Shown: positions 12,492 through 64,000 of the stretch, piece by piece | How positions within the stretch are numbered: position 1 is the first letter of the stretch | Layout: each line of letters opens with the position of its first letter | Origin: Siphonodentalium dalli | Lineage: Eukaryota; Mollusca; Scaphopoda; Gadilida; Siphonodentaliidae | Direction: 5' to 3' | NCBI GenBank assembly: GCA_032622095.1 | Contig: CP136061.1 | Location: 253,097,582 to 253,161,581, forward strand | DNA length: 64,000 nt | Notes under the pieces: model-generated | Told to the model about the DNA's origin: nothing | Databases searched by the model: none | Seen by the model: only the letters and a program-made list of their open reading frames with translations | Program-made: the position numbers and the translations under genes

Positions 12492-12533
12492 GGGGGGGGG
12501 GGGGGGGGGGGGGGGTGGGGGGGGGGGGGGGGG
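12492..12533. repeat. Poly-G tract, G24-T-G17
   Basis: Forty-one guanines with a single T lie on the plus strand, about 260 bp upstream of the MOCS2A-like start codon (so C-rich on the coding strand). Such a run can form G-quadruplexes and is prone to length change. Exact length may be affected by sequencing error. Confidence 0.9.
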
Positions 12534-24916: not shown

Positions 24917-25060
24917 GAACCATGGAAGAGTCAACGTCGTGATCAATACTCAGTTCCGGTGAACCATAGAGCCTGAGTCAACATCGTGACCAATACTCAA
25001 CTTCCGGTGAACCACATTGGAGGAGTCAACGTGTGACCAGTTCTGGTGAACCATGGAGGA
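24917..25060 (+). repeat. Start-codon-spanning tandem repeat of mms22l exon 1 (4 copies)
   Basis: GAACC + (A)TGGAGGAGTCA-like units begin at 24917, 24961, 25009 and 25048. The last contains the used ATG (25053). The first has an intact ATG (24922) opening a six-codon upstream frame, MEESTS then stop, that mimics the real N-terminus MEESCS. Copies 2 and 3 have lost the ATG (ATAGAG, CATTGG). Confidence 0.85.
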
Positions 25061-25179
25061 GTCATGCTCTATGACTCCACCACTTTCTCCTATGGACTAT
25101 GATTTCATGGATGTTGACTTCTTCGAAGAGGAACAAGTTCAACCAGTATTGCATGATCTCTCACCATCCTTCAATAAAG
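25053..25179 (+). CDS. mms22l: mms22l exon 1
   Basis: Encodes MEESCSMTPPLSPMDYDFMD onward, acidic, 42 codons plus one base (phase 1). ATG in context ACCATGG, a good Kozak match, decides the start over the upstream six-codon frame at 24922. The donor AAAG/GTAAGT is the first of five tandem copies. Confidence 0.85.
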
Positions 25180-28100
25180 GTAAGTGTAGTGTAATTATAC
25201 TCCCGGGTACTCCCCGTAATAATGATCTCCCACCATCCATCAATAAATGTAAGTGTAGTGTAATTATACTCCCCGTAATGATGATCTCCCACCATCCATC
25301 AATAAATGTAAGTGTAGTGTAATTATACTCCCCGTAATGATGATCTCCCACCATCCATCAATAAATGTAAGTGTAGTGTAATTATACTCCCCGTAATGAT
25401 GATCTCCCACCATCCATCAATAAAGGTAAGTGTAGTGTAAATATACTCCCCGCAATGAGTTATGGGGGTGGTATATATCTGTATATTATATGAATCGGCT
25501 TGTCGGCCCACCTGTTTGGGCGTAGATGCAACTTTGTTCGAGCTTTTATTCTGAATATTTAAAAAAAAATCTTGGTACATATATTTAGTACCATGGGAAC
25601 CTGTGCATCTGCGATTATGAGGTCCGTCCAACTTATTTGTGGACTTATCCCCTTTTTTCAAGTTAATAAGTCTGTTATGGGATAATTCAGGTATCTAATA
25701 AAATGAAATTATTAGATAAAGCTTAGCAAAAAATGAAGTAGATATTCTATAATTTGGTTCATACCACCTTCTCGCTAATAAACTACAATATATACATTAT
25801 ATTTCTATGAATGTGCCAAATACGACTTTTAATTATAATGTGCCCCACTGCCCTGGTAATTTCTAAACCAAATAAAATCGAACACTGAAAAGCAGTTGAA
25901 GCACACAACTTGTTGAGATAAGTTTACATAACCATATGGTGTGTACTAATCGAAAGCCAATTTAATTATTTAAGCCATACCATTGCTTGTTTGAAGATAT
26001 AACTCAATTGAGCAAATTCTTTTGCCTTTTGAAAGCGAAATTAATACTTGGGGTACTTGGCTCTTCCATTTCGTTAAAGTGTTGTGAAACACTCCGGCAG
26101 TGTGATCAAATATAAATGGAGAATAATCTTGCTCAAAGTAGTTATTTTTACGAATATTAATCCAAATTGACAACACACACCATCATTCTGATATATTAAT
26201 TAAATGCAATGACGCTCGATGGCGAAATCATTTGTGTTTGTTTATCGTCGATAGTTGCGTCCAGAATCCAGATGTAAATATTAAAAAAAAATCGTAGTTC
26301 AGACAATATTTTCTATGAAGTGGTATTCTCGATATCTTTGAAATTTTTGGCGATGTTAGTAGAATGCTTTAGTCTCCAGGTTGGCATAGCGCCTGAGTAC
26401 TAACTGATCAGTTTCACGTACCGGAACAAGTCCATAATATGTCTTTAATACTTACAAATGCAATACTCTTGAGTGCCTAATAAACATACATGTACGATTA
26501 TTAAAATTGAGGTAAAATTCCCACCTGTATGATTGTTATTTGGCCCTGTATGTTTATTAAATTAACCAAAAGAAATAATTCACCAATCTTAAATTGTGTT
26601 ATTCATAAAGAAATGAACTCTGATTGTTGACAAACAGTTGTCAGCATGCTGCAGATTCCCAGACCTGGCTATCCATCGAAACTATTTCTGTCACATATGG
26701 CATCAGTAAACCAGTCAGATGGTGCGTTTTGTGGGGATGTATGGTACTAATATTTCCAATCTGTACGTTTATTCCGCCCTGTACTATTATTCAGTTACGC
26801 GACATTTTCCAACCTGTACTATTATTCCACCCTGTACTTTTATTAGGCACTCAAGAGTACCCAGCTAGCATTTTTACATGTGCTTGGTAAATAAATTGGC
26901 AGCGGCACCAGGCCTGAGAATATGGTGCCGGACATTTGCAGAGTGAGGTCCCCAGTGGGTGAATTTAGTGATGCTACCCCACACAGCGGGCTAGCATCAC
27001 TAAATTCACCCTCTGAGGACCTCATTCTGCTTAGGCCGAATCTGCTATTGGAGACCTAGACTCAAATTTAAGTTCCCATATGGTAAATATTGTGATGGGC
27101 ACCCATTGGGCACCTCGAGTATGTAATGTGTCGTCTGCTAATTTGGAGATATATAGAGAAACTTCAGGCCTGAGAATATGGTGCCGGACATTTGCAGAAT
27201 GAGGTTCCCAGTGGATGAATTTAGTGACGTTACCCTGCACAGCGGGCTAGCATAACAAATTCATTCTCTGGGGATCTCATTCCGCATAGCTTCATATTCC
27301 GCATAGCTTCATCTGCTATGCCTATGGGAGACCTAGACTCTGAATTTTGCTTGCCACCACAGTTGTTGGAAATTATTATCAAAATACAATGATAAATACA
27401 CACACACCATTACTTCAATAATACAGTCTAACGTACACTGCCATATAATTGCCTCAGATCTGTGGAGAAACACAGTGCAAGGCCATTAAAATTATTCCTT
27501 CCACAACACAGTTCCTGGGCATATACGCTATACTGAATACAAATATATAGACAAGTATGGAAAGCTGGCCAATTTACTGGATTCAGAGTCAACCGGACTC
27601 CCTCTACCACAACTAGTTTCAAGTCCTATTTCAGCATAAAAAATGTATCAGTTGTAAAAATGTTTCTTCCACTCAATCAACTATATATATGTCTTGAAAG
27701 CAACACTGCAAATCCGAAATGATTTGGCATTTCTTGCAACATTTATTAATGTGAATTTCCAACAACACAAAAATTGAAAATCTGACAAGTCGCTATCCGA
27801 GTCACAGGCTATAATTAGAAGCACGGATTAGTTATGATGTTACAATCTCGGATGGTGACTCGTCAATCTCACACAGGAGTTTTCCATACTTGTCTATATT
27901 CTTATTAAAGTAATGGTACGTGTACTTATCAGCGGATTTTGATAAAATCTTCCAACAACTGTGCTTGCCACAAGTCACTCGCGAAAACAAATATTTGTCT
28001 CTGTCCCTCGGTAGCGGGGTAATTTCGCCAGAGCTATACTTGTCCTTGACCTCAATAAATGGTATACTCGAAGGGCGTGCATCTATAATCTCAAATCGAC

Positions 28101-31100
28101 TCCATTCCACCTGCATGTGCAATTTGACTTGTATATCAAGATGTTCCACCCACTTTGGTGTTCTAGAAACCACCCGAAAAAGACCCGTTAATTTGTTGAA
28201 TATAACGTGACTGCAAATTCTGAGGTGAAGGTCGAGTATAGCTCTTGCGACATTACCCCTCCAGTGGCCTCCACCCTGTCACTCATGAGATAAATGTTGG
28301 TATCCACTCAAAATCTCTAGATATCCTCGATATATCTTCCATGTTTGTTTATTTTTTATATTTAACAGATGATGACATTCCTCTTCCTATTTGCTTCAAT
28401 TGTGATATCTCTCAACATGATAGCGCGATGTCACTCAACTCAAAAGGGGTCATCAGGTCTGGATATCTCGACAGGTAATATAAATTCATAAATGTCACTG
28501 AACTCAAAAGGGGCCATCAGGTCAAGATATCTCGACAGGTTATTTCAATTCATATACAGTTATGTCACAGAACTCAAAAGGGGCAATCATGTCCAGATAT
28601 CTCCACAAGTAATTTGAATTCATACATAAAGAGGTCCTTTGGTCTGGATATCTCTACAGGTAATAGTAGAGGCTCTTATGTACTCCCGTGTGCACTTTGT
28701 GAAGAAATATAGCGACTATGCCAATGACGTTGCTTGATATATCAGGCACCAGAAAACAAATGTTAGACACCATGGGGTCGCGACTGGGTGGATTTATGAC
28801 GTCATCAAGATGGCCGCCATACACAATTTCACAGTATGCACTGAGTCAGTTTGATCAATATCTACTTGTGAATTTATTATAGAAATTTGATTATCTCACC
28901 ACTGACATGAAACTAATACCCCATACTTCCATTTGACAGAAAAGTGGCCACCATAAACCAAGATGGCCGCCAAAATGGCGACTGAAATTTGGAAAATTGA
29001 TGATTTTTCACACTTTCCTCTTGAATCATTAACCGATGTTTGAAATTTGTAACGAATAAAGACCTAAATTTGAATAAATTCTAGTATCCAACCATTTCTA
29101 CAACATAATATGTCATATTTCGGATCTCATTCCTGCCAGCAATCTTTAAAATGTGAATTCAAATATGTGCTATGAAAGTTAACCAAAATTCAATTATGTG
29201 ATTCTAGCCAAGAGTTGAACAGAAAATAACTAAATTTGATGAAGATAATGTAAACATATTTTAAATATGTGAATTGCCATATAGTTACACTGAAAATAGT
29301 GCATTTTCATTTAAGATGTCGGCCAAGATGGCTGCCAAAATGGAGAAATCACCAAAATCTGTCCAATTGTTATTGATATCACTCATGTGTTGGGGAAAAG
29401 TAAATATGTGAATATGTGCTACTTTTTCGCGTAAATCCATGAACTTATGGAATAATTTGTAAATTTGGTGAACCATATAGGTGCTTATACCCAAGAATTC
29501 ACAGAATTATACCACGAAAATATTAAGTCAAATCATCTTCATGGCAGCCACACAAAATTGCAGAATGGGCACTGAGTGAGGAAGAAAATTTAACACAGAA
29601 AATAAACAATATTTCTACGGCAATGATAAAATTGCACCAAGCTTCCTTTTGAAAGAACAAGATTGATAAAAACAAACTAAGATGGCTGTCAAAATGGCGA
29701 CCGAAATATAGAAATGTGTTGAATTGTTACACATGCCCCTTACATCATTTTCGGTTATTCGTAAACTGTGGCGAGTAGGACTTGTCTTTGTTTTTATCAG
29801 TCATGACACCAAGTACTTTGGAAATCATATTATGCTGTAATTTGTGTCTAATTGTTGTCCATACTGCGAAAAATGCAAATTAAATAATGCGCTATATAAC
29901 TTCACAAATAAACTTGCTTCTCGAGGTTCTAGATTAACATAGAACAGAAATAGGCATAATAAAATAAACAAAAGTGTACACAGTTTTAAATATCGTTAGT
30001 GTCATTCAATTACACTCGACATTGATCTATTTGACCCAAGATGGTCGCCAGAATGGCCGCCAAAACTCAGTTATAAAATGTGACCAATGTTTATATTCTC
30101 AAACGGCATTTAGGAAAGGAGTTGGATATATTCGCCCAATCTAAATTAGATACTATCATGTTAAGGTATATTGTGACTATGTTTGACCAAACATAGTTTG
30201 TTTATAATCGAGAATATATCAGAATGGACTCTTAGAAACCTAATATGAAATTGCCCAATATAATTTAAACGATCCTGCACGTTTCCTGGGAAGGAAGTCA
30301 AACCGGATATGTGCTGACTGAATCATTATAAGAGCAATAACGAGTACTCGAACGCAAAATAATCGCTGCAGTTATAATAAAGACAGAAATCCAACTTTAT
30401 GGCTATAGTATTTCGTTTGGGGCAGATCTGCTTTATTCGTTGCCTATTCTTGATGAATTGTTGACCACGTTGATTTCTCCCGGCTACAAAAATTTAGAAG
30501 ATTCAGGGAAAATATCACACCTTGACTTCATCGAAGTCGAAGTTGCATTGCTATCATACTGCCGCCGGGAAATATAATTGCTCAACTTAGAAATACACAG
30601 GCATTACATGTTAGTGCAAACAGTATTTCGTATCTAATTATGAAACAGTTGTGTCTAATAATATACAATAAGGGGAGATTGCATGGTTCATTTTCTTGTT
30701 TTTGGCATATCTGTGTTTCATCACCCGAAATTCGTTTGAATAGTTGAGACATTGTCACACTTCTCAAGACGTGAGTCAGCACATGTACCACTCTTGTTAC
30801 TTCGTCCAATAAATGGTCACATTGATGGTAGTCTATCTACAACCAACTCACCCCGGCAACTACAGTTGAATTACAAACTCATCTCGCAAGCTAACAGAGC
30901 TCACCACAAAACTTTCCGACTGCATATCAGAGAATCCATATAGAATGTTTGCTTCGGTTGTGGAATGGAGACTCCATGATACAGATTTAATAAATAAATT
31001 TCAATACGACCACTGACCTCATAGCAGATACATTGCATATTCACTTTGATGTAGACTAACAGAGCTGTGCATATAACCGTGTTAATGCTTGTCAGTTTAT

Positions 31101-37100: not shown

Positions 37101-40100
37101 ATGAATGTTTACTGTAATATATGTAACTTAATTCAAAGAATCGCGACTGTTTTTATTTTTGACAAACAAAGGTTTACATGATCAGTAAAAATCGGGATAG
37201 TATCATAGCAACATGAATGTAATTGCGACATACATTAATGCCCTCAATAATCGACTCCTTAACCACAGCAGAATTATGGGTAATTTTTGAGGATTTAGTC
37301 GGAAATATGGCTTGTTGCCATTCACCGGAGAGCACTCGGGGAGTGCTTTCTGATGAATGGCAACAAGCCGTATTTCCAAATAATCCTGAAAAATTATCCA
37401 TAATTCTGCTCTGGTCAAGGAGTCGATTATTTAGAGCATTACTGTAACCTGGCAGAATCCTGAGGGAACTTCTCGCCAATGAGAATTTAGTAAAGAAGGG
37501 TTAAGCATTGACATTTTACAGTGATTGAATTATGATATGAAATTGCTATGAATTTATAAAACAATTTAATTCCAGACAGAGAATTGACAAACTTGATATG
37601 GCTCCATCACAGACCTACATTTTGAATGACAGTACGTATGCAAAATAGTACAGAATCAACAATTTGAAAACAATCAAAAGCGTAATTTTCACTCATCTAA
37701 TTTATTGAATTTGGCTTCAGATTACAGAAGCATTTTCATATTTCAAAGTAATCTAAGGTTATTCTCTGACATATGCAGGATTATTTATTTATTTTTTTCA
37801 AGTCTACTATCATTATCAGCGGAACTAGTAACTGACGGTGGTTTTAACCGAGAGATTGATGTTTTTGGTGCGACAATAATCTGGTTTCAGTTCTGTTCAG
37901 TTTTGTTGTCATCCTATAATAAATCTTGATTATTTGGAGCTTACCCAAGCCCAGAAAAGGTACGGTATACTTTATCAGCAAAATACATGAAATATGCTGG
38001 GTCTAGCTTGTCTAATATTCACATTAAATCAAAACAAGAGTTGAATGCCTCTCTTGCACTTAGAGAAAAAATAAATATATGTCGACGAAATCATCAGGTA
38101 TCCACCCTCAAAAGTCAATTTTTTAAAACTTGGCAGATGTATTTAGTACTATGGGACCTCTATACCTGCAATTATGAGGTCCGTCCTAAATTTGTTAGTG
38201 GATTTATTCCTCTTGTTTCACATAGAAATTTATTGAAACATGTATTATTTTGTCCGAGCTTGTATTCTTGTCTAATTTTTCTTTAAAAAATCAAATATGT
38301 TAATATGGCTACCCTTAACCCTTTGAGTGCCAGGTCCGATTTTTGTATCAACCCATATACCCTGTGCCAATGCATTTTCTTATATATGCGAGTCGACCAT
38401 AGGTCGCCTCGCATATATAAGAGAATGCATTGGCCTAACAATTTTTCATCATTTGTTATTATTTTTTACAATTTTTTACAATTTTAATAATTTGTTCTTA
38501 TATTCTTTAACTCTTTCAGTATTTTGTAGGTTTAGTGCCAGGGAATCTTAAGTTTTTCATGGGCATCAAAATTATTACTATGAATACTTGGTGATAGTTT
38601 TGAGTTATAACATGCCCCTAAGGTTTTATCCAGTTTGTTTTTATTAAAAAATTTTTAGGGCCGATTTTACAGACTGTAAATTAGGGCCGATGAGATCGGC
38701 CCCTGGCACTGAAATGGTTAATTCTGCCCAATTGCACTTTAGGTGTCATTAGTCCAACTGGGACAGTCTCACCTCTAGTTGTCTTTATGATAATAAGAAA
38801 AGATCTGTTCCTCATTTTCAGGTGTTTGTGGAAACCATCTGGAAATACGTAAACAGATCAAGATGTTCTTTGAGTTCATAAAGAGATTATCTCACAGGTG
38901 GGTGGTTTATCTTACATATGGGTGGTTTATCTTACAGGTGGGTGGTTTATCTTACAGATGGGTGGTTTATCTCACAGGTGGGTGGTTTATCGTACAGATG
39001 GGTGGTTTATCTCACAGGTGGGCGGTTTATCTCACAGGTGGGTGGTTTATCTCACAGGTGGGTGGTTTATCTCACAGGTGGGTGGTTTATCTCACAGGTG
39101 GGTGGTTTATCTTACAGATGGGTGGTTTATCTCACAGGTGGGTGGTTTATCTCACAGATGGGTGGTTTATCTCACAGGTGGGTGGTTTATCTTACAGATG
39201 GGTGGTTTATCTCACAGGTGGGTGGTTTATCTCACAGGTGGTGGTTTATCTCACAGATGGGTGGTTTATCTCACAGGTGGGTGGTTTATCTCACAGGTGG
39301 GTGGTTTATCTCACAGGTGGGTGGTTTATCTTACAGATGGGTGGTTTATCTTACAGATGGGTGGTTTATCTCACAGGTGGGTGGTTTATCTTACAGGTGG
39401 GTGGTTTATCTCACAGGTGGGTGGTTTATCTCACAGGTGGGTGGTTTATCTCACAGATGGGTGGTTTATCTCACAGGTGGGTGGTTTATCTCACAGGTGG
39501 GTGGTTTATCTCACAGGTGGGTGGTTTATCTCACAGGTGGGTGGTTTATCTTACAGGTGGGTGGTTTATCTCACAGATGGGTGGTTTATCTCACAGATGG
39601 GTGGTTTATCTCACAGGTGGGTGGTTTATCTCACAGGTGGGTGGTTTATCTCACAGGTGGGTGGTTTATCTCACAGATGGGTGGTTTATCTCACAGGTGG
39701 GTGGTTTATCTCACAGATGGGTGGTTTATCTCACAGGTGGGTGGTTTATCTCACAGATGGGTGGTTTATCTCACAGGTGGGTGGTTTATCTCACAGATGG
39801 GTGGTTTATCTCACAGGTGGGTGGTTTATCTCACAGGTGGGTGGTTTATCTCACAGATGGGTGGTTTATCTCACAGGTGGGTGGTTTATCTTACAGGTGG
39901 GTGTTTATCTCACAGGTGGGTGGTTAATCTCACAGGTGGGTGGTTTAACTCACAGGTGGGTGGTTTATCTCACAGGTGGGTGGTTTATCTTACACATGGG
40001 TGTAAACCTCATTACTCTAGAGTCTAGAGTGCCTAATAGTACTACAGGTAGGAATAATGGTACAGGGTGGAAAATCTCTAAAATTTTAATAACAGTACAG

Positions 40101-46100: not shown

Positions 46101-49100
46101 ATCAGTCGCTGAGGGCATCTTCACATTTACACACGTTTAATCAAAGACTAACGTGTCTTTTATTTAATTGTGTCGGTATTTGTAGTTGATTTTTATGGTT
46201 TTTGCTGCTGAAGTGCAATGGCATACACAAATCATTCTAGTCAAACTAGTAATATAGCCCATTGGTATATAATATATAGCATCATTGGCATATAATATAT
46301 AGCATCATTGGCAACCAATCGTCTTCACACCCTTCATATCAGCGATGTCTATATTGTTCTATAAATATGTCAAACAACTCATACGGTATTACTAAAACCA
46401 TCATTAGTGTAATAGATCAACTGGAGATAACAGAGATATTCTGTCCATACAAATATTTCAGCGATGGATGAACTGAAATTTGATATCCAGATTTTTTATC
46501 GATCTCTCATACGAGGGGCCAGCACTCGTGGTTCAAACTGTTGTTGGCAAGACACCACAAAACATGCCAAATGTGTGATGGGCGCAAGTATAGGCAGCTC
46601 CAGTGAGTGCATTCTAGTTGTCTATGCTATTGTGTGTATAACATCTATTTTGTAAAATTTAGCTTTACACCTTACCGTCTGTATAAATTTCTACTAAATG
46701 TAAGCTTCATTTCATGTGTTAAATGTTTATACCCATCGCAGAACTACAGAAAATATTTCTTCTGTTACATTCATTTGAAATTTGAACTTAAATATGAGGA
46801 AAATCGCCTGCATTTCTATCAATCGTAGCTTGCTATTTGTATACGATCTAGGAAACATATGAATGGGAATATCAAGTGACTGACGGCTTAGAAACAGGCT
46901 GACGTAAAGGTATTGATCCTTATAGCATCGTGATTTATGTTTTTGATTACTTGCTCGGTGAGGATACACATTAAAAGTAAACAGTAGAGAAGTTGAATTC
47001 GTGGAACAAATGAAAAATAATTATGGAATAAATTAAATACACCCATAGTAGCCGAGAGTACCAAATTTTTACCACTCGCTGTATTGTGGTTTTAACCACT
47101 TGCCAAAAAGGCTAATGGTTTAAAACCAAAATTACACTCGTGGTGGATATTTGGTACTCTCGGCTACTATGGGTGGATTTTATATAAAGATAAAGTGGTC
47201 AACTCCTACGTTTCTTGTTACAGACATTCTGGGACGTCTTCAGGACAATACTCAATACAGAAGAGAGTCAAGTGGATTCCAGTAATAAATGCGGTCAGTA
47301 AATATTGTAAGATGTTAAGGTGACATGCCCAGTTCTAATGCCCACATGGTATTTGTTTACATCATCATTACACATATGAATGTAGGCCATTAAAGTGATA
47401 TGAAATACTCTGGTATGGTGATCAAATAGAAACGGAGAATAATCTTGTTCAAAGTAGTAATTTTTACAAATAGTATATCCAAATTGACAACACACACCAT
47501 CATTCTTATATATGAATTAAATGCAGCGACTCTCGATGGCGAAATCATTTTCGTTAGTTTATCGCCGATAGATGCATCCCGAATCGAGTAGTAAATATTT
47601 ACAATTGAGCGTAGTTCAGAGGATGTTTTCTATGGAGTGGTATGTCGATTGGCTTCAAATTTTCGGCAATGTTAGTAGAATGGTACATTCCTCCAGTTGT
47701 CATGGTGCCTAAATACTAACTTATCAGTTTCACGCACGCGAACAGGTCCATAATATGTCTTTAAAATAAAATATCGGTGTTGTTAGATGATTAGATCTCA
47801 ATTTAATGATGGAGGCTATTTTTTTTTTTCTCAAAATCATGAGAACATACTCCAGAAACAGAAACAAAATAATTTTCGTTGTTCAAATCTAATAGAAAAT
47901 ATTGAGAACAATGTTTGACGAGGTTTAAAAAAAAAAATATTTCAGTGACAAGGGAGAACTTTTGAGTAGAGTACGGCGAACAATTTAAAGGCAGTTCTAT
48001 CTGGAAGAGTTCAAAGCTCATTCTAATTCAACAATTTATCCACAATTTTAAATTTAGATAGGTTTATGTTGAAGACATAATGATTAAAATGCATTGGATT
48101 ATACACTGCTTGGAAAATTGTAGGATATTTTACGATAAAATTACCCATAGATCCATTAATTTCTGGAATTCTTTGAGACAAAAAGACTCCCTCCCTCAAT
48201 GACCCTCATCCAGTTTCCCATATGTAAATGCCTGAGAACATAGGCATTTATTTTTAACCCTTTCGTGATGGGAGCTGCGCTGGTGCAGCATTAAGGATCC
48301 TGTGCCAGTGCATCCTCTTATATATGCGAGTCTCCCATAGGTAGCCTCGCATATATAAGAGAATGCAATGGCTTACAAGGTCAAGTAAATATTGTTAGGC
48401 CAATGCATTCTATTCTATATATGCTAAGCTCCCTATGGGAGACTCGCATATATATGAGAATGCATTGGAACACGGTTTTTGCGAAATTTCAGGAAGCTCC
48501 AATCATGGAACAGTTAATGGCCTAATTTTTGTTACCTTAGTATTTCCATTTTTCAGATTCTAATATAGTTTACCTGCCACCTAAACTTGAAGTGAAGAAC
48601 AGGGATGGATTCAGCTTATGGGTGCTCGTACATGTAGCTGGTCTTATGGAGTACGATGTCAAAGGGAACATTATTGAGGTCTGTCTTTTCTATGCGCTAA
48701 AGTCAGTAGTCAGGTTCAGCAACAGTAATGCCCTAAATAATCGACTCCTTAACCACAGCATAATTATGGGTAATTTTTCAGGATTTAGTCGGAAATATGG
48801 CGTGTTGCCATTCATCGGAAAGCTGTCACTGAGAGCTTTCCGATGAATGGCAACAAGCCAAATTTCCGACTAAATCCCGAAAAATTACCCATAATTCTGC
48901 TGTGGTTAAGGAGTCGATTATTTAGGGCATTACTGTATTGTCCTGGCTTCTGACCTATTGTCTACACATACATATTTTACGATACAATAGCATGTATCTT
49001 TGACCAGAAGGGAGGGATGCTTTCGTGTTAAGATAATGCAAATAAATATTTAATGGACAGAATTCCGATAAAAACAAATGGCTGTTTTTTTAATGGGACC

Positions 49101-52100
49101 CAATCGTCGCGTTCAAAGTTGTATTTTATGACTTCATTGGTCTTACTGTCTCGTAAATAGGTAGTTTAGATATTTATCGACCTATTTATAATACCGTGAA
49201 AAATTTTCTATGACTTTGATGCGTCTTTCTGGGAAATATAATGCTTGTAGAAAGGTAGTTTAAGTATGTATCAACCTATTTCGATACCAGGAAAAATTCA
49301 AAAGCAAATATTATTAGGTGTATTTTTGACCGCAAATCACCATGTGGCTTTAAGTAATAAACTAAAGCTATTCAATTGTAAATACGTAGAGCCAACAAAC
49401 ATATCAAGGCTCATCGAGATAATAGGTGAACATTAATGTCTATAATCGAGATAATAGGTGAACATGAATGTCTGTGATCGAGATAATAGGTGAACATGAA
49501 TGTCTATGATCGAGATAATAGGTGAACATTAATGTCTATGATCGAGATAATAGGTGAGAACAAAATTGTCTGCGTCACATTTATTTATTGAATAACTTCT
49601 GTTTTATTCACAATCCAGTCTGATGTAGCTGATAACTATCCAGATCTACAGAAGATACTCAAAAGAATTCTTCTCAATGTGAGTTCTTGTTATGAAGAAT
49701 ATATCAATTGTCCTTTACCACCCGAGTAAAGCATATCATTATTTCCCATCTCCAAGATTGTGGGTATGCTGGATTATGTGCGTCCGTCGATCACTGGAGC
49801 AAATAGCTCAGTCATTGGTTGTCGGATCTGAATAAATTTGGTATGAATGTCAGCCACCAGGAGGTAATAAAATCACTATTTTCAAGACAGATATGTTAGT
49901 TAAAGACATATTATGGACTTGTTCGGGCACGTGAAATTGATAAGTTGGTACTCGGGCACCATACCAACCTGGGGAATGTAGTATTCTACTAACATCGCCG
50001 AAAATTTGAAAGAAATCGACCATTCCACTCCATAGAAAACACTCATATGAACTACTCTCAATTGTAAATATTTACATCTCGATTCGGGACGCAACTATCG
50101 GCGATAACTTAACACATATGATTTCACCATCGAGAGTTTTGGCATTTAATTAATATATAATAATGACAGCATGTGCTTTCAATTTGGATTAATATTCGTA
50201 AAAAATAACTACTTTGAGCAAGATTATTCTCAATCTCACTACCTGAGTGTTTCACATCACTGAGTAAGACTCCAAATTACTCTCATAATGCAGCATAATG
50301 TGGGTATGTTTTTATAACAAAGCCTTGTAATAGTGTCTGTCATTTGCAGAATGAGGTCCCCAGAGGGTGAATTTAGTGATGCTACCCCGCATAGCAGGCT
50401 AGCATCACCAAATTCACCCTCTGGGAACCTCATTCTGCTGAGGTGTAAGCAGAATGAGGTCCCCAGAGGGTGAATTTGGTGATTCTAGCCCACTATGCGG
50501 GGTAGCATCACTAAATTCACCCTCTGGGGACCTCATTATGCAAATGACAGACACTATTTCAAGGCTTGTTTATAATCCCTGTGATGAAATTATTGGGTGT
50601 GGGGGTATTGGAATTGACTTGTCTGTCTGCCCATCGGGGCATATCTCCATTCGTGGATGCAATTTTGTCTGATCATGCTGGATCATGTATACCTATAGTT
50701 TCTGTCAATTTTTTGAAACTTGGCACAGATATTTATTATCAGGAACCTGTGCACTTGCTATTAGGAGGCCATTCCAGTCTGACTTTTTTAAGTTGAGTTA
50801 TCCCCCTTTTTTGACATCACATATTATTTTGACATTAATATAACATCTTAATGATACAACTGAGATATTAGATAAATATTCATCACCGATTATCAAATCG
50901 AATCCTGACGTCGAATCAAATATGATTTGGACTACCGAATATTCGCAGAACCATACAAAACAGGTGGCATATTACATACCGCTATGTTCGCCATCAGTTA
51001 ACAATTGAGAATGTACAGATGGATGATTACTGCTTTGGCAGTTTGTTTTTACATTAGTTAATATACTGAGGTGGGAGGAGTTTTTACAGTCATTGTCAAT
51101 ATAAATGATACTTCTCTATAAATGCCCCATTGTATAGTTGTCACCAAAAAATTTCGACCCAGATAAAAAAATAGTCACATGAAATTGATTTTATAGAAGA
51201 AAGTTAGTTCTGTAAAATAATTCTAAAACCGCTGTACAAAGTGAAGAGCTTTGCATAAAGTATTCAGTGACATATTTAAAAACTGCAACAAGATCTTTAT
51301 AAAGTCCGTCTTTAAAGGGGGACTATACACTAAATCCGGCCATTTATGGTACCATCTCCTTTTATACTCGACAGAGTATTTGCAACAAATGAATAAATTT
51401 GAGCCATGGATTAGTGCAAAAATACACTCACTCTATGAATGATGCAAACAACAAGGGAATTATAATTACCATGTTGTTTGCATCGTTCGTAGAGCACAAC
51501 AGTGTATTTTGCACTAATCCATGGCTCGTGTTCATTCATTTGTTGCATGTATTCTGTTGAGCATAAAAGAAGATGGTCCCATAAATGGCCTGATTGAGTA
51601 TACAGTCCCCCTTTAAATTTGTTTTATATTTCATATATACAAAGGTATCGTTAGATCTATATAAATAATTTTATTAAAGACACCCTGTCTATCTTATAGT
51701 TGGCATGTGGATACATAGATTTAAAACCCTGTGCCAGTGCATTATCTTATATATGTGAGTCTGCCATAGGGAGCCTTGCATATATAAAAGAATACATTGG
51801 CCTCACAATATTTACCTTGACCTTGTAAGCCAGTGCATACTCTTATATAGGCGAGTCTCCCATATAAAGCCTCGCATATATAAGAGAATACATTGGCCAA
51901 ATAATATTTACCTTGACCTTGTAGGTCAGTGCATTCTTTTATTTATGTGAGGCTCCCTATGGGAGACTCGTATATATAAGAGAATGCACTGGCACATGAT
52001 CTTTGAAAGGGTTAATGTTTTCAGTAATTTCTACTTTTTCAGTCAGAGATGACAGAGCATGAGTTGAGATGTCACCTGAGGTGTGTGTTGTATCTATCAC

Positions 52101-55100
52101 ACAAGTGGCCAGCAAGCACTGAGGTGCTGATACCGCTGTGGGATTATTTCTTCAAGAGACTGGTCAGTATATCTCATATTTTAGGCCAAATAAAAAATAT
52201 TATGACATGATTAGCACTATTTTCCAATGTAATATTCGAGCGTAATAGACACGTGTAATATCGTCGCGTACAATGATGTCACGCTGCTCTTTGGGCCAAA
52301 ATTCGCAGTTCGCTGGCTGCAGTTAATTTTTTTTCTTTTTTCGATAAAATTTTAACGATTATTTGATCATGTGATAAAAAGTATCTCAAACTCGTTCTAT
52401 TTTATACGTAATTTATCAACCTCGTCCACTAAATTCTATTTTAGCCTCGGTAAACCTCGGCTCAAATCGAATTTAGTGAACTCGGTTGATAAATTCCATA
52501 TAAAATAGTAACTCGTTTGAGATCCTCTATTTCTCAGACGCCTGCGCATTGAAATAAATGGCCCGAATTGGATGTTTTATTTCGATTTTGATTTTATGAA
52601 TAAAATAAGTACATTTTTTTTTTTTTTATACTGTTTTGATACGTATTTACCAACATGTCCATGTGTGTATTGAGCATTAATTGCAACTCATTAGAATGTT
52701 TGGTAATCACTATGACATACACTAGTTGCACAATGTAATTTTGATATCAGATTAAATGAGTGTATATGCTAAACAAAGTTCCCTCTACATTCTCTGACTA
52801 TTACTAGACAAGGGAAGCTATCATGATCCATGCTTATGATGTGCACACAAAAAAATAAAAATAAAGTCCTCCCTCCCTCATTGATTCGGGAAAAAAATCT
52901 CAAATTATCTGATAATATGGTGCTGGGAATTGGGCACCTCCATTAATTTGTTAAGCAATTATTATACCGCCCATTTAAAAAAAAAGGGAGTGTGGGGCTA
53001 TAGCCTATACTGTTTTGCATCTGTCGAGGCGTCTGTCCGTACTTCCGTTTGATGTCTGTTCAGGTCACAACTTGGAACAGTAGTGCTCAGATCTCAATGA
53101 AATTTGGTATGCATGTTCACTACTATGAAGACATTCAATCGAGTTATTCAATCGTTTTGTTCAGGTTTTCCGTTTTTTAATTAGTCATCTTTGTTTATCT
53201 GGAATGTTGGTCATCTTTGTTTATCTGGAATGTTGGTCTGTCTGTTTGTTTGACCTATGTCTGTTCAGTTCATAACTTGAACAGTAGTGCTCAGATCTCA
53301 ATGAAATTTGGTATGTATGTCAACTATTATGAGGACATTCAATGGAGTGTTCAATCGTTTAGTTCATGTTTTCCATTATTCATCATTGTTTATTTGAAAA
53401 TGTTGATTTTTGGGTGCGTCTGCCTGAGTATCTTAGTTATAGATATGCCCACACTAGGTGGTATGCCATATGGGGGCATGCACCGGACTACAGATCATCT
53501 CTTGTTGACAATCTAAGTATTATTTATCCCACAGAGTTAGAGTGAAAGACAACAACTGGAATGTGTTAATAGCTACCTGTTTAGAAAAACATAATTATTT
53601 ACAGGAAGCCGATACAATAAATATAGTAGTAACAAATACAAACATGTGGGTGACAATATTTTGAGGCACAATAACTGCATATAGATGTAGGCCAAAAGGG
53701 GGCAGACATCAATCGAATGTGTATTCGAAATTCCCCAAAACACAAAAAATGAGGAGGGAGGGATGGTTTTCAAAATAAGCGACTGGCTTCGCCGATCTAT
53801 TTATTGGAAAGAAAGTTAACACAACCGCTTCGCGCATCCCTTCCAGCAAAAATTATAGTTCCCATGATTCTGCTCTGCGAATTGGAATAACTCGCAGACT
53901 AAATAGCATTACTGCCAAAATACAATGTACCTGTACTTTATAATTATGTTTTAATTTCATCTAAGTACTTCGCAACATCAGTGTATAGCTTACTTATCTG
54001 AAATGTCATGCGTTATGGTGTAGTGATCTATGCCAGTGAAAGATCTCGCTACCAAACATGTTTGTGTTTGAACACAATTTTGCTTTAAATTCACGCACCT
54101 GATTAACCCTATGGGATAAAATAAGTCGCTCTTATACGGCTATGTTATGGCGAGGAGTGTTGCCAAAAAACACTGTTATTTTTTGAGTTGCGTACACATT
54201 CTTTATCCCTTTAGTACTAAATGGATTCTCCCATTCAGTTATAAAAGTCTACATTGGAATTGTCTAGTATTCATATGGAGGGGCATTTTAATAATATAAT
54301 TACAGAAAACAGTTACTTACCTTGAAATATGCCCCACTTTGTTTAAAACAATGCACACCAAGAACATATGCAATTACTAAGAAGCAGATTGGACAAAACC
54401 ATATTCAAGTGATTGCAGAGTCAAACCTGCAAATAGTGTGTCTGTAATTTGCAGAATGAGGTCCCCAGAGGGTGAATTCAGTGAGGCTATTTCGCATGGC
54501 GGGCTAGTGTCACCACATTTATCCTCTGGGAACCTCATTATGCTTAGGCCTCAACTGCTATGGGAGACCTATGATCTATATCCCCTAATTTGCCGAAGAT
54601 AAAATACATAATCGAGGTGACTAATGGATTCAACTGGATTTTCACCCATTAGTCACCTCGATTATGCATTTTATCTTCTGCAAATTAGGGGATATAGAAA
54701 CTTCCCAGAAGGGAAAAAGTAACTAAAACAATGTTAATTTGAGATTATAGATACTTCCCAGAAGATGAGGCCTAAGCTGAATTAGGTCCCCAGAGGGTGA
54801 ATTTGGTGATGCTAGATCGCTGTGTGGGATTGTGCCGCTAAATTCACCCTCTGGGGACCTCATTCTGCAAATGACAGACACACTAATTGCAGGCTTGTAC
54901 AGAGTGCATCACTATAGTGATAATATATCGGGCCATATAAAGTAAATTTCCAGAAAATTTTGAAAAACATGAGATTGCTCAGTTTTTAATTATATTTTTA
55001 TTTCTGGGGGCACACACCAATGAAGCATTCCTGGATCGGCTACCTCTGGGTTTAATTTGGCCATTATTGCTTGAACAGATGTTCATAAAAAGTTAGATCG

Positions 55101-58100
55101 TAAAATCTTTGCAGACGTAACTCATCATGATTGGAAATTTGAATCCGGAAATGGGTATGTTCGATCTCAGTTCAGAGCAAGTTTGTAATAAAAACACGCA
55201 GGCTGAGAAACGGGAAATTAACTGCGTGGGCTCATGGCTATTTTTTTTTCCAGAATAACAACTTTCAAGCAACAGCATCGACACTTCAGGGATTCACATC
55301 AGAGTGGTGTGTATACTTTAGTTATATCACATCAGAGTGGTGTGTATACTTTAGTTATATCACATCAGAGTGGTGTGTATACTTTTTTCACGATGTGCAT
55401 AGTTTTTCACAAATTTCAATGAGGCAGCTTGGTGTGCAGGATGTTTTTGGCTCCCATCCGATCAGAATTCATGTTGATGATGGGTGCTGTGCCTTTGCCT
55501 GATATTAATTTGATTTCTAGCTTATTTCATTTCTGTGTTTTGGTTATGTGAAAGAAGTTTGTTTTAGGTTTGATTTGGGTATGAGCGTGTTTTATTGGGA
55601 TATAAAACACATCAAACAATTGGCAATTGACCATTCAATGGACAGGATTTATTTTGAAATACACAGTCTATGTAAATATTTGTTTATATTTTCCCCCTCA
55701 TATTCCATATATTAATACACACCTCAAAATATATAAGTTCCCTCCTGACATATTGCATTATAACGCAATGATCCTGAGGCTGATTGTCAGGAAATTTCCC
55801 CTGTGTGATCAGTATCATACGACTAATGATTTAACATGCATGTTAACACATTGAGTGCCGGAACCCTATAGTGTAACATTCCAGGGTGCCAACTTTAGAT
55901 TATGTATTAAATAGTTAGATTGCACCATATAACCACCCTCAAACCCAAAAACTGGGCATGTATCAGCTTGGATCACATAAAAACATGCCACATACGCACT
56001 ACAAGATAACTCGTAGTCGGCACAGAGCAACACCATCTCATGGTATTTTGGCTGGGTGCCGACTATGAGTTATCTCGTACCCACGAGTACTTCATCAGAT
56101 GATCATATTCGATATTGTAAATAATAAACATGTGCTGGTTTGACCTTTTGTAGTAGCCTGCACTTGTTCTGATTATGACATAACTCGTCACAGCTGAGGA
56201 ATATCATGTCCCACATTCCAGGTTTAGATTGGCGGCGCTTGGTGCCGACTACGAGTTTTCTCGTACCTAAATTTTGACAAATACAATCTTACATGTGTGA
56301 TCATGCTACTTCACAATTGATGTCTATATTGAAATACACGAACTTACTAGTTATTCGGGACTGCAGAATGTTGGGCTTTTGTGGATCTTATCATAAAATG
56401 CCAATTCAGATGGCACAATTGAGTTAGGGGTCAATGCGTCAGTATAACCATACTTTCGGCATCAATTAGGTCGCTTTATTACAGAGATGTAGTGGCATCA
56501 CTCACATCACATATATATTTGAGCTTCCTAAGATGGTTGAAATCATGTGTATGTGGGGAACTCAATTTCTGAAATTTCTACAGAAGAACATCGAGACTCC
56601 ATATAAAGTATGAGATAACTCGTAGTGGCACCCTGTAATATAGTGTAATACAAGATAACATGTAGCCGGCACTCAACGTGTTAACTCCTTGTGTGTTTGC
56701 ATGTCTGAGTACTGTGAGGAACATTTGTATGTAGGAAGTGCTCAGCTCAAAAGTCACAAAACCATTATTAAGTTGTAAAACTCATTTCAAGATGCACGTG
56801 AAGAAGAACTTAGTACTTCATATTCCATGTAATTCCATGCTATACCAAGTTTGCTCTGAAATAACTGCCCCTGACAGGAGTGAAGGTTTTAGGCATGACT
56901 AAATGTAGGCACTGTGCTCACATTTTAATGAATGGACACTGGACTGTCTGGACATATGGCTGCTATTCCCCTTGCAGTTGCTGAGTATTCTCATAATGTT
57001 TTGTCATTATCCACTCTTTTGTTGACTGCTTGCGTGGCCCTTTTGGTTCCAGGTTCCAATTCACCAAGGAGAGGTCCACTTGTCGTTAACTGAGAATTCT
57101 GATATTTAAATGTGACCAATTGTCCAGCATACGTGGACATGTTACGGAAATGCCCTAAATAATCAACTCCTTAACCACAGCAGAATTATGGGTAACCATT
57201 CAGTGAGAGCTTTCCGATGAATGGCAACAAGCCATATTTCTGACTAAATCCTGAAAAATTACCCATAATTCTGCTGTGGTTAAGGAGTAGATTATATACG
57301 GCATTACTGTACCTCTTAACCCTTTACCCAACAAACCGGCCAAAACCGGCCAAATAAAGCTTCAACAGCCTAAAATATCTTCGGTCTGTCTCAATAGAAC
57401 CATACAAATATGGATATCATTGGAACCGGCTCCTTGACCACATTGTGATAGTTACATTTATGCCCTGTGCCAATGCATTCTCTTATATATGCGAGTCGAC
57501 CATAGGTCGCCTCGCATATATAAGAGAATGCATTGGCCTAAAAAAAAACTTTTTTTAACACTTTTTACCATTCTTTAACAGTTTTATAATTTTTAATGTG
57601 TTAAGCCAATGCATTCTCTTATATATGCGAGGCGACCTATGGTCGACTCGCATATATAAGAGAATGCATTGGCACAGGGCCCTTCTGTTGGGTAAAGGGT
57701 TAATGAACCCAGCGATTTTTGGAAAGTCGACTCTTCCCATTCAATTAGTGTTAATTCAAGCATGTTGCCATTCACCATATCATTAGTTATATGATATGTT
57801 GGTCTCATACAAGATTATCTTCCCCAAGTTTTGTTACATTCTAATTTCCACATCTGGTTCAAAATATCAAGGGGGATCTTACTTTTTTTAAGGTGTTTAG
57901 CTTAATTCTGTTGGTTTTTTTTATTTTGAACATATTTATTTCAGTAAGACTCCCCTTGGGTTATTACAACAGTGTAAGAAATGGCAGTCAGATAATCAGG
58001 AAGGGTGAGTTATATACTTGTCAGATAATCAGGAAGGGTGAGTTATTTACTTGTCAGATAATCAGGAAGGGTGAGTTATTTACTGGTCAGATAATCAAGA

Positions 58101-61100
58101 AGGGTGAGTTATATACTATTATGGATCAGATATGCTGGCCTATGTCAGAACATAGTAGTATTCCCCACTAAGAGTTCCTACCCACTAATCTATATGGTAT
58201 ATCTCTTCTATGTTCTTGGTACATGAAGGGTGAAACACCTTTTTTTTAAAATTGGTATGGATTATGTCAGAACAATGGTATCTGTTCTTTAGGGAAACCA
58301 TACACTTGCATAATATATTGTCATGTGTGGATATCTAGTGTTGTGAAAATAACATTTGTCTCTTTCACGAATGACAACATTATCGGTATCCACTCAAAAA
58401 CACTTCTTTTTAGCTCACTTGACAAAGTCCTTTGGCATACTCTGAGGGCCACATCCCTCATCCGATCCTCACTAAACATCATATGTATCTTTGGGGTAAC
58501 CTCATTGTGGGAGACTCACATATATAAGAGAATGACACTGGAACAGGATCTTTAATTCTGCACTATCGCAGCTCTTGTCACTTCTAAGTGAAATTGTGCA
58601 ACATCATATGTTTTTCCTGTGTTTTTGGTATTAACAAATGAACATGCCTTGAAAAGGTGTTTAATAGAACGTTTGTTGTTGTTGGAAGAGCTAGAGCAAT
58701 TTAAACAAATATAGATAGGTTTATGCTGGAAGATATTATGATAAAGGTTGGTGCTGGACAAATGCTATAGATTATTAGGTGAGGCACATAATGAGTTTAG
58801 CTATAATAGTTGAACTTAGATATTGCTGTTTTGTGAATTTGATCCAAAATCATATTTCACAAAAATGACTCAAAATCAGTGTCGCACTAATTCAGTAACA
58901 TGATTGTTTTTGTGATGAAATAACATGCCTCGTAGGATGTGAATGTTTAACCCTTTACCCAACAGAACGGCCCTGTGCCAATGCATTCTCTTATATATGC
59001 GAGTCGACCATAGGTCGCCTCGCATATATAAGAGAATGCATTGGCTTAACACATTAAAAATTATAAAATTGTTAAAGAATGTAAGAAAAAATGGTAAAAA
59101 GTGTTAAAAACAGATATTTTTTAGGCCAATGCATTCTCTTATATATGCGAGGCGACCTATGGTCGACTCGCATATATAAGAGAATGCATTGGCACAGGGC
59201 ATAACTGTAACCATCACAACGTGATCAATGAGCCGGTTCCAATGATATCCATATTTGTATGGTTTTATTGAGACAGACCCAAGATAATTTAGGCTGTTGC
59301 AGCTTTATTTGGCCGGTTTTTGCCGGTTTGTTGGGTAAAGGGTTAATGCAGGGTCCGCGCTGGACTAAAATTTACTTTTGCCAAATAATTTGCCAAATGA
59401 AAATATTTTTTGCCAAATTCTATTAGAATGTGCCAAATGTTATTCCCGATAGTATCATTTTCTGCAACCTTGTTTGGGTTTTATGTTTCGACATTCTCGG
59501 TTTGAACGACGTTTGATATCGTCAGGAAAGCAGTTAGTTAATAATTATACTCGCATCTCTATTGTGGTTTATCATGCAACAATAAACCAATCACTGAACA
59601 ATAAAATGGTAGAGGAATTGCTTCATCAGAAGGGAACATCACAAGAGGATAAGCAATGTAAACACCACCGTGTATGTAATCCATCCACCCATCGATTATA
59701 ATGTTACCAGATTATCTGCATCTTAATGGAGGCGTTAACTTTTCCGAAACTATAAAACACCACTAATATAATTTTATTGTAATAGTTTGCTAAAATGAAT
59801 GGTATTGATTGACCGATATTTTTCAAATATATTGAGGAATTAAAAAGTGACTTGCCAAAACTTTTGCCAAATGAAAATATTTTTTGCCAAATGTGAATTA
59901 TTTTTGCCATTGGCAAATTTGGCAAGTGGCGGCGCGAACTCTGGTTTAATGATGATGCAGCCCTGTTAATTGGCGTCGGCTATCAGCTAATTGCCTAGGT
60001 GAAAAGAAATTTTGTGGGCTATTTTTTAGGAAAATTCAGAGCCTGCCAATGTTTTGTGCAAAATTGAAACAAATTTATGGAGACATTGCCTTAATGTTGC
60101 ACTGTGGAAGTCTGCAGACAACAAAAATTCATTGTTGAATGCCAAGGACTACTATTATAACAAGGACTACTAAGATAACAAGGACTACTGAGATAATAAG
60201 GACCACTGAGATAATAAGGACCACTGAGATAATAAGGACTACTGAGATAACAAGGACTACTGAGATAACAAGGATTATCTTGATAATCAGTAATTTTAAA
60301 CCAGACTCAACCAAAGTTTGCCACTGTTATGATGGAGTGATTAATTGAAATAAGTTGGCGCAAACGCTTGCAAAACAAATTTTATTTGATGTAATGTAGT
60401 GAAGAGTGCAATTTGGCTCTGCACTGGAATGTGCGATCGCAAATTAAAAAAAAAAATTGGGAAGTAGCGTATTTGCCACTGTTGGATTCAACTATAACAG
60501 ATAAATATAACTATAATATTGAATAACAAGTCTTTCTAAAATACTTGACATATATTTTAACCCTTTCATTCTTGGAACTTTCTGATTTTTTTGCGAATAC
60601 CCTGTGCCATTGTAATCTCTTATATATCGAATCCTAATCGAATAGGGACAAGCACTGGATGGATAAAATCATAACTGACCATCGGATATCCTTCTAATTA
60701 TTGTTCACTTATTTTTCATAAAAGCCGAGACTTTTTTTTCAAATAAGAATCAAAGAACCTAGACAAAGTTCACAGACAAACATTTTGCCAGTGACATCGT
60801 TCTCATGACATATACGTCATCTGAGCACAGAACTTCAGGCCTGCAGGTTTCAAAATTATGTATAAACTATTTTCGTTTGCCTGGTTTGTGCTTATGTAAC
60901 CCATACCATAGGTTAGCAGGAAAGTTACACAAACTGTTATAATCACTACAACTGGTATTAATAATTACAGATGGACAACTCATTGAACTACCGTAATAAA
61001 TTTGAATGTCTCATTTTGGGACTTTATTGAGCGAAAATTAAGGTTATTAGTTATTGCGAGACCTACATTTATTAAACTTTGGCACGACCTGTTTTTCGTT

Positions 61101-62849: not shown

Positions 62850-64000
62850 GTAATTCAATCTAGCAAGGAAGTCAATTAGTCATTTTCATGACACGAATTG
62901 ATACTTTCATTTTGCTGTTGTCACCATGCACAAATCGTTGGGTTTGTTCATTGCGTTACTCGGAACACTGCTCCATAACAATTTCCTGTTGGGTGGGTTG
63001 GCTCGTTTCGCTACTCCGTTGTGCGCCGATGAAATTTTACCGTGCTACATTCAGATTTGATGCACACTGAAACGGCCGATGAATGGCATCTATAGACAAC
63101 AACGCGCGGGTGTGCTCGTTTTGCTACTCCGTTCTGCGCCGCTGAAATTTTACCGTGCTACATTCAGATTTGATGCACGCTGAAGCGGCCAATGTCGGTG
63201 AATCGAAAACTAAAGCTAGCCGCTCTCAGCCAATCAGAATGCTTGTTTTTAGTGACAAATACTTAATTGAATTACAAATTGCAATACAGCAATACTGGGA
63301 CAGGTAGTATAAATGAGTTTTCCAGAGAAATTAGCTGAAGTAATGCTATTTAATTAGACTCTTATTATGACAGCTCTTGTAAAAACACCACTATCAGCTG
63401 CAGTTAAAAACAGTGACCAGCCTAGTGGGAAACTTGGGAGGCATCTTCTCCCTGAGATAGAAGTGACTTCTCCCTCATATACCAGTATGCTTATGTCCCG
63501 ACAGCATGTTTAAAGTATATTTACTGATTATCATGGTGTAATTACTCACTACAATGGTTTTATTACTCACTATAATGGTGTTATTGCTCACTATAATGGT
63601 TTTATAAATGGGCTCTTGTGTTGCATAATAATTATTGGATCATACTCTCAGGTGCCTAATAATAGCATCAGCACGTTTATTAATTTTAGAGAAAATTCCC
63701 AAAGATCACTATTATTTGGCATTGAAACAGAGTGAAATTGCTATCACTATTATTAGCTCAACTTTACTTTGTAAAGTTTGAGCTATTGCCATGGCTTTGT
63801 CGTCCGTCGTCCGTGTGTGCGTGTGTACGTGATGCGTCAACAATACAGGCTACAGGTCGTATCGTGGGTCGGATCATTATGAAATTTGTCATAGCTGTTG
63901 ACATTAACATTTAGACTGGAATGATTAATTTTGGGGTTATTTGGAAAAAAAACATGGCCGCCAGTGGCCATTTTGGATTTCAAAATTCAATCCATTAGCA
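62850..64000. other. mms22l intron 16 (to window end)
   Basis: A direct repeat of about 110 bp: GCTCGTTTCGCTACTCCGTT...GAAATTTTACCGTGCTACAT at 63000 and again at 63116. Three short ATTACTCACTATAATGGTxTT units lie at 63540-63605. No exon recognised. Confidence 0.5.

Follow-up and report, generated by a model that had tools for sequence, protein, structure and literature searches.

Tandem duplications across exon edges of the MMS22L gene of Siphonodentalium dalli resemble the mirage minisatellites of lancelets

Tandem repeats running across exon-intron boundaries have been described gene by gene in lancelets as "mirage" minisatellites, partly by means of RT-PCR and haplotype data (PMC3087553, PMC3902484). 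The amphioxus genes concerned include Adh3, the globins BflGb6 and BflGb9, troponin C, and PGBD5, with units of 10 to 72 bp in Adh3, 150 to 160 bp in the globins, and 60 and 108 bp in PGBD5 (PMC3087553, PMC3902484). The pattern that we report for MMS22L is thus already known as mirages, and MMS22L is an extreme case of it. As in the amphioxus mirages, many units carry AG/GT signals and the unit lengths overlap; unlike those gene-by-gene cases, ours comes with a rate in a sample of other genes (13 of 174 control donors) and involves 10 junctions of a single gene, and it is known from the sequence of a single assembly (2.23 Gb, 9 contigs) rather than partly from RT-PCR and haplotypes. Human genes in segmental duplications also contain minisatellite-like internal tandem repeats at exon-intron boundaries, with a mean unit of 30 bp; there they alter splicing or coding in recent paralogs, whereas here the homology-supported reading keeps the coding sequence (PMC2812944). 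The potato gene that gained an intron by tandem genomic duplication shares with our case the link between introns and tandem duplication, but there the intron is new, whereas our arrays lie at one end of long introns (PMC4974935).

The window, that is, the whole stretch of 64,000 nucleotides analyzed, carries the gene on the forward strand, and its exon-intron boundaries are predicted from sequence throughout. Its identity as the DNA-repair gene MMS22L follows from four of seven joined-exon segments scoring above the Pfam cut-off, with E values of 4.7e-87 and 2e-20 for MMS22L_N and of 1.8e-17 and 9e-8 for MMS22L_C; among the joined-exon segments searched, exons 1 to 4, 20 to 21, and 25 had no Pfam match, and PDB searches with two of the exons as query returned no relative. 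Searches of the genome for cuticle and molluscan haemocyanin domains (PF00379 and PF14830) were negative, as they were in every control genome, and so carry little weight as to phylum. We placed 15 exons in the window, where the first-pass annotation had counted 16, and its exons 14 and 15 are our exons 13 and 14. The first four were set by eye: exon 1 (25053-25179, coding from the ATG), which has no match of its own in Pfam or tblastn but whose frame stays open into exons 2 to 4 with consistent phase; exons 2 (28369-28474) and 3 (37803-37867), each agreeing in phase with both neighbors; and exon 4 (37979-38097), an open frame. Exons 5 to 15 lie in Pfam-matched segments. Exon 5 (38822-38897) agrees in phase with exon 6, and exon 13 (55254-55306) with exons 12 and 14; joined open frames cover exons 6 (43258-43402), 7 (44310-44403), 8 (44919-45049), 10 (48557-48678), 11 (49619-49678), 12 (52043-52162), and 14 (57945-58004). 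The donor of exon 9 (45303-45416) was set without phase support, and exon 15 (62299-62406) has edges free of duplication. Beyond the placed exons, at least two more are expected from phase or homology, one between exons 4 and 5, which is likely because their phases do not match, and one between exons 9 and 10.

Seven of these 15 exons have a tandemly copied splice edge (six donors and one acceptor), and an additional array covers the start codon. All of the arrays that the first-pass annotation named are present in the sequence. The imperfect start-codon array (24923-25039, 47 bp × 2.5, 77% matches; TRF) repeats the start-codon context (ATGGARGAGTCA) in the 5′ leader, where the upstream ATGs soon reach stops in their reading frames. 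At the exon 1 donor, TRF reports a 59-bp unit in 4.3 copies plus the exon copy (25143-25458), giving four decoys besides the true donor, one of them equally strong. The exon 2 donor array (28428-28664, 64 bp × 3 plus a decayed fourth copy; TRF) has three decoys, the decay of the last lying elsewhere in the unit. By far the longest is the array at the exon 5 donor (38887-40002, 20 bp × 55.9; TRF), where GT is kept in 37 of the 54 decoys and the strength of the true donor in 35. The acceptor of exon 8 lies in an array of 68 bp × 4.6 (44652-44961; TRF) that presents TTTCAG four times, the last being the true site. A diverged two-copy duplication with an offset of 55 bp and an indel spans the exon 9 donor (45381-45482) and is absent from the TRF output. 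Exons 13 and 14 both have 33-bp units at their donors, repeated 2.8 times with two identical decoys (55294-55385; TRF) and 4.0 times with three identical decoys (57987-58117; TRF); in exon 13, the copies are indistinguishable by frame because the unit is open in frame.

In the 3′ half of the gene, which lay outside the earlier reading, 2 of 10 donors and 1 of 11 acceptors are duplicated, so that over the whole of MMS22L a tandem repeat spans 10 of 50 edges and 8 of 25 donors; acceptor 24 scores 30, exactly at the threshold used to call a junction duplicated, and 3 of the 10 edges (exons 1, 2, and 25) belong to exons without Pfam support. TRF alone, which is stricter, gives 5 of 25 donors and 1 of 25 acceptors. 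The ten units are mutually dissimilar (best cross-score, 18), which bears out the first-pass view that the array sequences are unrelated and the duplications independent events. Its phrase "in one gene" is misleading, however: the arrays are indeed in MMS22L, but kinesin, dynein, and mTOR-like genes show the same pattern.

In these control genes (dynein, kinesin, and FAT), the junction-copy test found 21 duplicated edges among 351, with 13 of 174 donors and 8 of 177 acceptors positive. Duplicated donors number 12 of 100 in kinesin, with 2 of 103 acceptors, and one of the six exons of the mTOR-like FAT sample is duplicated at both edges. Dynein has 5 of 68 duplicated acceptors and no duplicated donor among 68, a null that holds for the 300-bp search window only, since at L037, in a pair dropped from the sample, the exon end and donor recur about 660 bp downstream, the scored L037 donor being the second copy. 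With TRF alone, the values were 8 of 80 donors and 1 of 83 acceptors in kinesin and 0 of 68 and 2 of 68, respectively, in dynein. The dynein sample was reduced from 96 matches to 76 neighboring pairs and then to 68, eight being dropped for poor or impossible joining. For kinesin, 115 of 123 match rows were used; removal of six near-identical paralogue rows left 109 rows in 106 regions, 100 of which were scored. All six FAT matches were taken, with the ends of L182 and L183 trimmed and the edges of L180 set by eye. Donor positions were likewise set by eye for eight kinesin positives, as was the L110 acceptor, and the rest by splice-site score, on which the dynein acceptor positives L005, L055, and L062 rest without inspection; the kinesin positives include the weak L146 (score, 33) and L118 (four exonic bases). 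Two further families were set aside as controls: FancD2, with only seven matches, mainly to very long exons, and the myosins, many of whose matches are near-identical copies on C4. The 56 matches obtained for DHC_N1 exons do not enter the counts.

The arrays are strictly one-sided. MMS22L and the controls together give 31 positive junctions (21 donors and 10 acceptors, so that both 5′ and 3′ boundaries are affected, as in mirages), and every one has its copies on the side of the intron and none on that of the exon. Without exception (31/31), the copied segment includes fewer exonic bases than the distance to the copy, and therefore no coding sequence is repeated within an exon. When the exon-proximal copies of MMS22L are joined, none of the seven segments contains an in-frame stop. 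The earlier description, in which one copy joins the exon and the others are intron-side decoys, accordingly holds, and the one-sidedness also supports the reading in terms of purifying selection that had been proposed with it. Donor decoys, counted in 16 of the 21 donor arrays, mostly keep their splice signal, with GT retained in 75 of 92 and a site as strong as the true donor in 65 of 92.

We consider it likely that these arrays are mirage minisatellites, produced by local duplication, with selection clearing copies from exons and sparing those repeats that extend across a splice site into the intron. On this account, the genome would yield many short local tandem duplications in many places, with units of about 20 to 170 bp and mostly 2 to 10 copies. 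A copy falling within an exon would alter the protein and be lost. If a duplication spanned a donor, the original exon and donor would stay upstream and the surplus copies would enter the intron; if it spanned an acceptor, the last copy would stay beside the exon. Surplus copies of splice edges probably do little harm, because they land inside the intron, and the arrays could survive and expand like any intron array because splicing at the exon-proximal site would yield the same mRNA as before. The spliceosome presumably passes over the decoys by exon definition, and selection would be the filter behind the one-sidedness. MMS22L is then an extreme case within an array-rich stretch, noticed for that extremeness.

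The frequency of arrays within introns bears on this account and on its main rival. In shuffled introns, a second copy was retained at 0 of 148 control donors. A nearby copy was found, however, at 10 to 11% of arbitrary intron positions in MMS22L and at 5.1 to 5.8% in the control genes (dynein and the first 83 kinesin exons, excluding the last 20 kinesin exons and FAT), which makes the array density of the genome the right baseline. The first unit of an array takes up 3.1% of intron positions; measured against this share, control donors (7.5%) are in excess (P = 0.0036), and so are those of the first four kinesin batches (9/80 against an expected 2.1%; P = 6e-5), unlike what pure neutrality predicts. 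Also to be set against the favored account are the array starts around 148 kinesin and dynein donors, 8 of them in the final 100 exon bases and 13 in the first 300 intron bases. The donor excess lends some weight to the possibility, which we regard as rather unlikely, that splice donors are favored starting points of duplication, perhaps because transcription or splicing leaves a lesion close to the exon end, and that selection then keeps the intron-side duplications. It would also fit the preponderance of donors over acceptors among the positives (21/199 versus 10/202; P = 0.04), the lack of enrichment at control acceptors (P = 0.16), and the 8 of 25 donors in MMS22L. Against total array coverage (5.6%), by contrast, the control donors show no significant excess (P = 0.17), and pseudo-donors within control introns are positive just as often (12/146 at +100 bp and 13/133 at +140 bp, compared to 9/148 true donors). 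The control families disagree, with dynein at 0 of 68 donors and kinesin at 12 of 100, and 168 of the 174 control donors come from just these two motor-protein families. Nor do the units sit at a clearly preferred place with respect to the junction (Kolmogorov-Smirnov P = 0.26 for hand-entered unit lengths), although the test gives P = 0.04 with raw copy distances, which in many cases cover several units. The proposed process favoring junctions is weakly supported: the first-unit comparison at donors speaks for it, but coverage, acceptors, and pseudo-donors do not. A mild mutational bias toward donors may exist. That donors are duplication hotspots, with arrays starting in the last tens of exon bases more than elsewhere, seems doubtful to us; if true, about 1 donor in 13, and 1 in 3 in MMS22L, has strong decoys that the spliceosome must skip by position alone.

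MMS22L itself is a significant outlier, but one picked after the fact: its donors are duplicated more often than those of the controls (Fisher P = 0.0014) and more often than the share of first units in its introns would predict (4.1%; P = 5e-6), whereas the 3′ half alone is consistent with either rate (P = 0.19 and P = 0.06, respectively).

A role for selection in maintaining the surplus sites, for redundancy or alternative splicing, is highly improbable. The decoys are largely intact, and the 33-bp unit of exon 13 would insert 11 residues in frame and without a stop. Yet the splice-site core is mismatched about as often as the flanks (3.6% versus 2.7%; P = 0.30), so the decoys are no more conserved than the rest of the unit, and the selected redundancy suggested earlier gains no support; because the decoys were detected by aligning sequence over the junction, ruined ones may escape this count. 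Of 32 measured rows, 10 have a raw copy distance divisible by 3, the share expected by chance (the rows include a second L062 junction with a score of 17, below threshold and excluded from the counts).

Slightly less credible still is the route, also raised by the first-pass annotation, in which the arrays are stages of intron birth through tandem duplication of AGGT-containing exon segments. AG|GT is present at five of the eight duplicated MMS22L donors (exons 1, 2, 5, 23, and 25) but lacking at donors 9, 13, and 14. Such a route places the intron between two copies, whereas in 8 of 10 MMS22L junctions, namely all those with a placed neighbor (exons 9 and 25 lack a placed next exon), the array does not include the opposite splice site, which is 249 bp away at exon 8 and up to about 9 kb away elsewhere. 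An assembly artefact is the least probable reading, for although the copy number of long arrays may be wrong in any assembly, the copies each have substitutions and indels of their own, and distinct arrays are present on several contigs.

For gene annotation, the arrays are a practical trap, because predictors can lengthen exons into the decoys. For the study of splicing, they offer natural constructs, with up to 54 near-identical donor copies after one exon, for probing how the spliceosome chooses among equal sites. More broadly, the rate at control donors suggests that splice-site-spanning duplication is a common and tolerated mutation in some animal genomes, and such tolerated duplications may be a stock from which alternative splicing or altered exons could arise.

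The tandem repeats that the first-pass annotation had read across the edges of seven of 16 MMS22L exons were all borne out by TRF and by reading of the sequence, with small details changed: seven exons have a duplicated splice edge, but out of 15 placed in the window; the start-codon array is present but irregular; the exon 9 duplication is present, but as two copies that have diverged and differ by an indel; and the duplicated edges of its exons 14 and 15 are real but belong to exons 13 and 14 in our numbering. Its view that the units are unrelated also holds, the ten MMS22L units showing no match to one another. We applied a uniform junction-copy test, in which each junction was locally aligned with the neighboring 300 bp and was positive at a score of ≥30 with the junction covered; edges of some positive cases were set by eye. 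In the window half of the gene, 6/15 donors and 1/14 acceptors were positive, and in the 56 kb right of the window, the half that the annotation had not seen and that was examined independently, 2/10 donors and 1/11 acceptors. There, the last 65 bp of exon 23 recur 171 bp downstream (with a repeated 25-bp piece between the two copies), donor 25 carries a 73 bp × 2 duplication, and a 41 bp × 6.4 array ends at acceptor 24, where little exonic sequence is included and the score falls exactly on the threshold (30). A 36 bp × 9.7 array that stops 3 bases before exon 23 was left out of the counts. Some 29.5 kb past the right end of the window (L075:9483-9589), a 39 bp × 2.7 MMS22L repeat with the in-frame reading NPEIADAEVECFI may be coding or a further donor array.

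These counts rest on a 26-exon model in a 2.23-Gb assembly of 9 contigs, in which the window occupies C1:253097582-253161581. MMS22L begins at about 24917 in the window, runs rightwards, and extends about 55 kb past it, where Pfam models match; 15 exons were placed within the window and 11 to its right. A tblastn query with an approximate human protein sequence locates 16 of the 26 exons used, several weakly; for exons 1 to 5, 11, 13, 14, 22 (without a donor), and 25, placement was by eye, guided by open frames, splice signals, and phase. The reading frame was built with predicted splice sites and the copy adjoining each exon. Four of the seven joined exon segments (exons 5-9, 10-19, 23-24, and 26) match MMS22L_N or MMS22L_C above the curated Pfam cutoffs, and the segments of exons 1-4, 20-21, and 25 gave no Pfam match. 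Joined exons 10-19 form 343 stop-free residues, and the remaining six segments, built with exon-proximal copies, are likewise open. At exons 1, 2, 5, 8, 14, 23, and 24, the choice of the exon-proximal copy is backed by phase or because the frame, when extended, soon meets a stop; at exon 13, the 33-bp unit is open in frame, so that the copies are indistinguishable by frame, and at exons 9 and 25, where the next exon is missing from the model, the choice is presumptive.

Several other features were seen in and around the gene. MMS22L introns hold 164-bp satellite-like arrays of about 11 units (window 63848-64000 into L073, a stretch right of the window, and L073:5768-7674). An element built of inverted halves (GCAGAATGAGGTCCCC...) occurs dispersed, at window 50346-50541 and at four further loci (L018, L025, L053, and L084), TRF giving 103 bp × 1.9 at several loci. 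Left of the gene lie a run of about 42 G (window 12492-12533) and an open frame of 171 residues (window 21776-22288) that, judged by eye, resembles a mobile-element protein fragment.

As controls, exons of the dynein AAA1 domain, kinesin motors, and FAT domains were cut with their flanks and put through the same test. Positives numbered 0/68 donors and 5/68 acceptors in dynein, 12/100 and 2/103 in kinesin, and 1/6 and 1/6 in FAT, compared to 0/148 control donors with shuffled introns. Among them, about 10 donor copies follow a kinesin exon ending in ...NLVDLAG (L092), and another kinesin exon end lies in about 11 repeats (L176). The pattern therefore reaches well beyond MMS22L, across several contigs. 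The FAT exon L180 (C4:297559724-297562906), mTOR-like as judged from its residues, has its splice sites duplicated at each edge, with an acceptor copy at 54 bp and the exon end and donor in several downstream copies. At C5:102297617-102299474, a dynein AAA1 exon has its second half, donor included, repeated in the intron about 660 bp farther downstream, beyond the 300-bp search and thus outside the counts. Within one gene, two overlapping dynein AAA1 matches (profile 81-121 and 74-125; C1:55453649-55458187) separated by about 3.4 kb are possibly a duplicated exon. FancD2 (C5:255752019-255765015) is split into a small number of very long exons (one open frame spans 568 residues), whereas the other genes sampled have many short ones. 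In a region of C4 (158-292 Mb) with many myosin-head copies, 12 of the matches listed share one TAG in the same profile stretch (∼376-435).

At every positive junction, we searched the exon side as well. The copy lay downstream at 21/21 donors and upstream at 0/21, and upstream at 10/10 acceptors and downstream at 0/10, so that all copies are intron-side, as the first-pass annotation had described for its MMS22L cases; the distance to the copy always exceeds the exonic part of the copied segment. This one-sidedness is what loss of coding duplications would leave.

Whether neutral survival suffices is a question to which several baselines give conflicting answers. Since a donor-straddling array without repeated coding sequence must straddle with its first unit, the share of intron positions in first units is one baseline, and it amounts to 3.1% (69/2198) in controls and 4.1% (123/3000) in MMS22L; the positions were taken at 20-bp steps and are nonindependent, which makes the p values approximate. 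The first-pass annotation had proposed comparing arrays at exon borders with control positions, and in the sampled genes, such an excess appeared in part: control donors (13/174, 7.5%; 168 of the 174 from two motor-protein families) exceed the first-unit rate (p = 0.0036) but not plain coverage, with a downstream copy at 5.6% of positions (p = 0.17), and acceptors (8/177) show no enrichment over the first-unit rate (p = 0.16). MMS22L donors (8/25) stand above controls (Fisher p = 0.0014), and MMS22L was picked because it is extreme. The chance of at least 8/25 at the control rate is 3.3e-4, so that, assuming some 20,000 genes per genome, a handful of such genes is expected.

A transcription- or splicing-linked process that makes donors hotspots of tandem duplication would account for the donor excess over the first-unit rate. 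Within control introns, pseudo-donors were positive in 8/148, 12/146, and 13/133 cases at +60, +100, and +140 bp, and pseudo-acceptors at the same offsets in 3/151, 9/151, and 12/140, compared to 9/148 and 6/151 for the true junctions of those sets. Intronic pseudo-junctions are thus positive as often as true ones, and with this control taken into account, we regard such hotspots as unlikely. Of the array starts at 148 donors, 8 lay within the final 100 bases of the exon and 13 within the first 300 bases of the intron. The placement of units about the junction fits a uniform distribution for hand-entered unit lengths (KS p = 0.26) but not for raw copy distances, which are often several units long (KS p = 0.04).

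Similar arrays have been termed mirages in amphioxus, where PMC3087553 describes tandem repeats across exon-intron boundaries in Adh3 and in globins, and PMC3902484 adds PGBD5 and cites troponin C; there, RT-PCR by the authors and the data on Adh3 point to normal splicing. Amphioxus mirages and the present arrays are alike in unit sizes and two-sidedness. A related human set appears in PMC2812944. Our literature search, covering few subscription papers, found neither a genome-wide mirage rate nor mirages under that name outside amphioxus.

We identified 92 decoys, spread over 16 of 21 donor arrays, by alignment across the junction, so that ruined copies may be missed; 75/92 keep GT, and 65/92 match the true donor in strength by a simple weight matrix (38/38 and 30/38, respectively, with exon 5 excluded). 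Copy numbers are those of one assembly. The splice core, with a mismatch rate of 3.6% versus 2.7% in the flanks (p = 0.30), is neither enriched nor depleted in mismatches, and as far as the sample tells, decoys are neither destroyed nor preserved. Judging from these predicted sites, correct splicing, if it happens, must rely largely on position.
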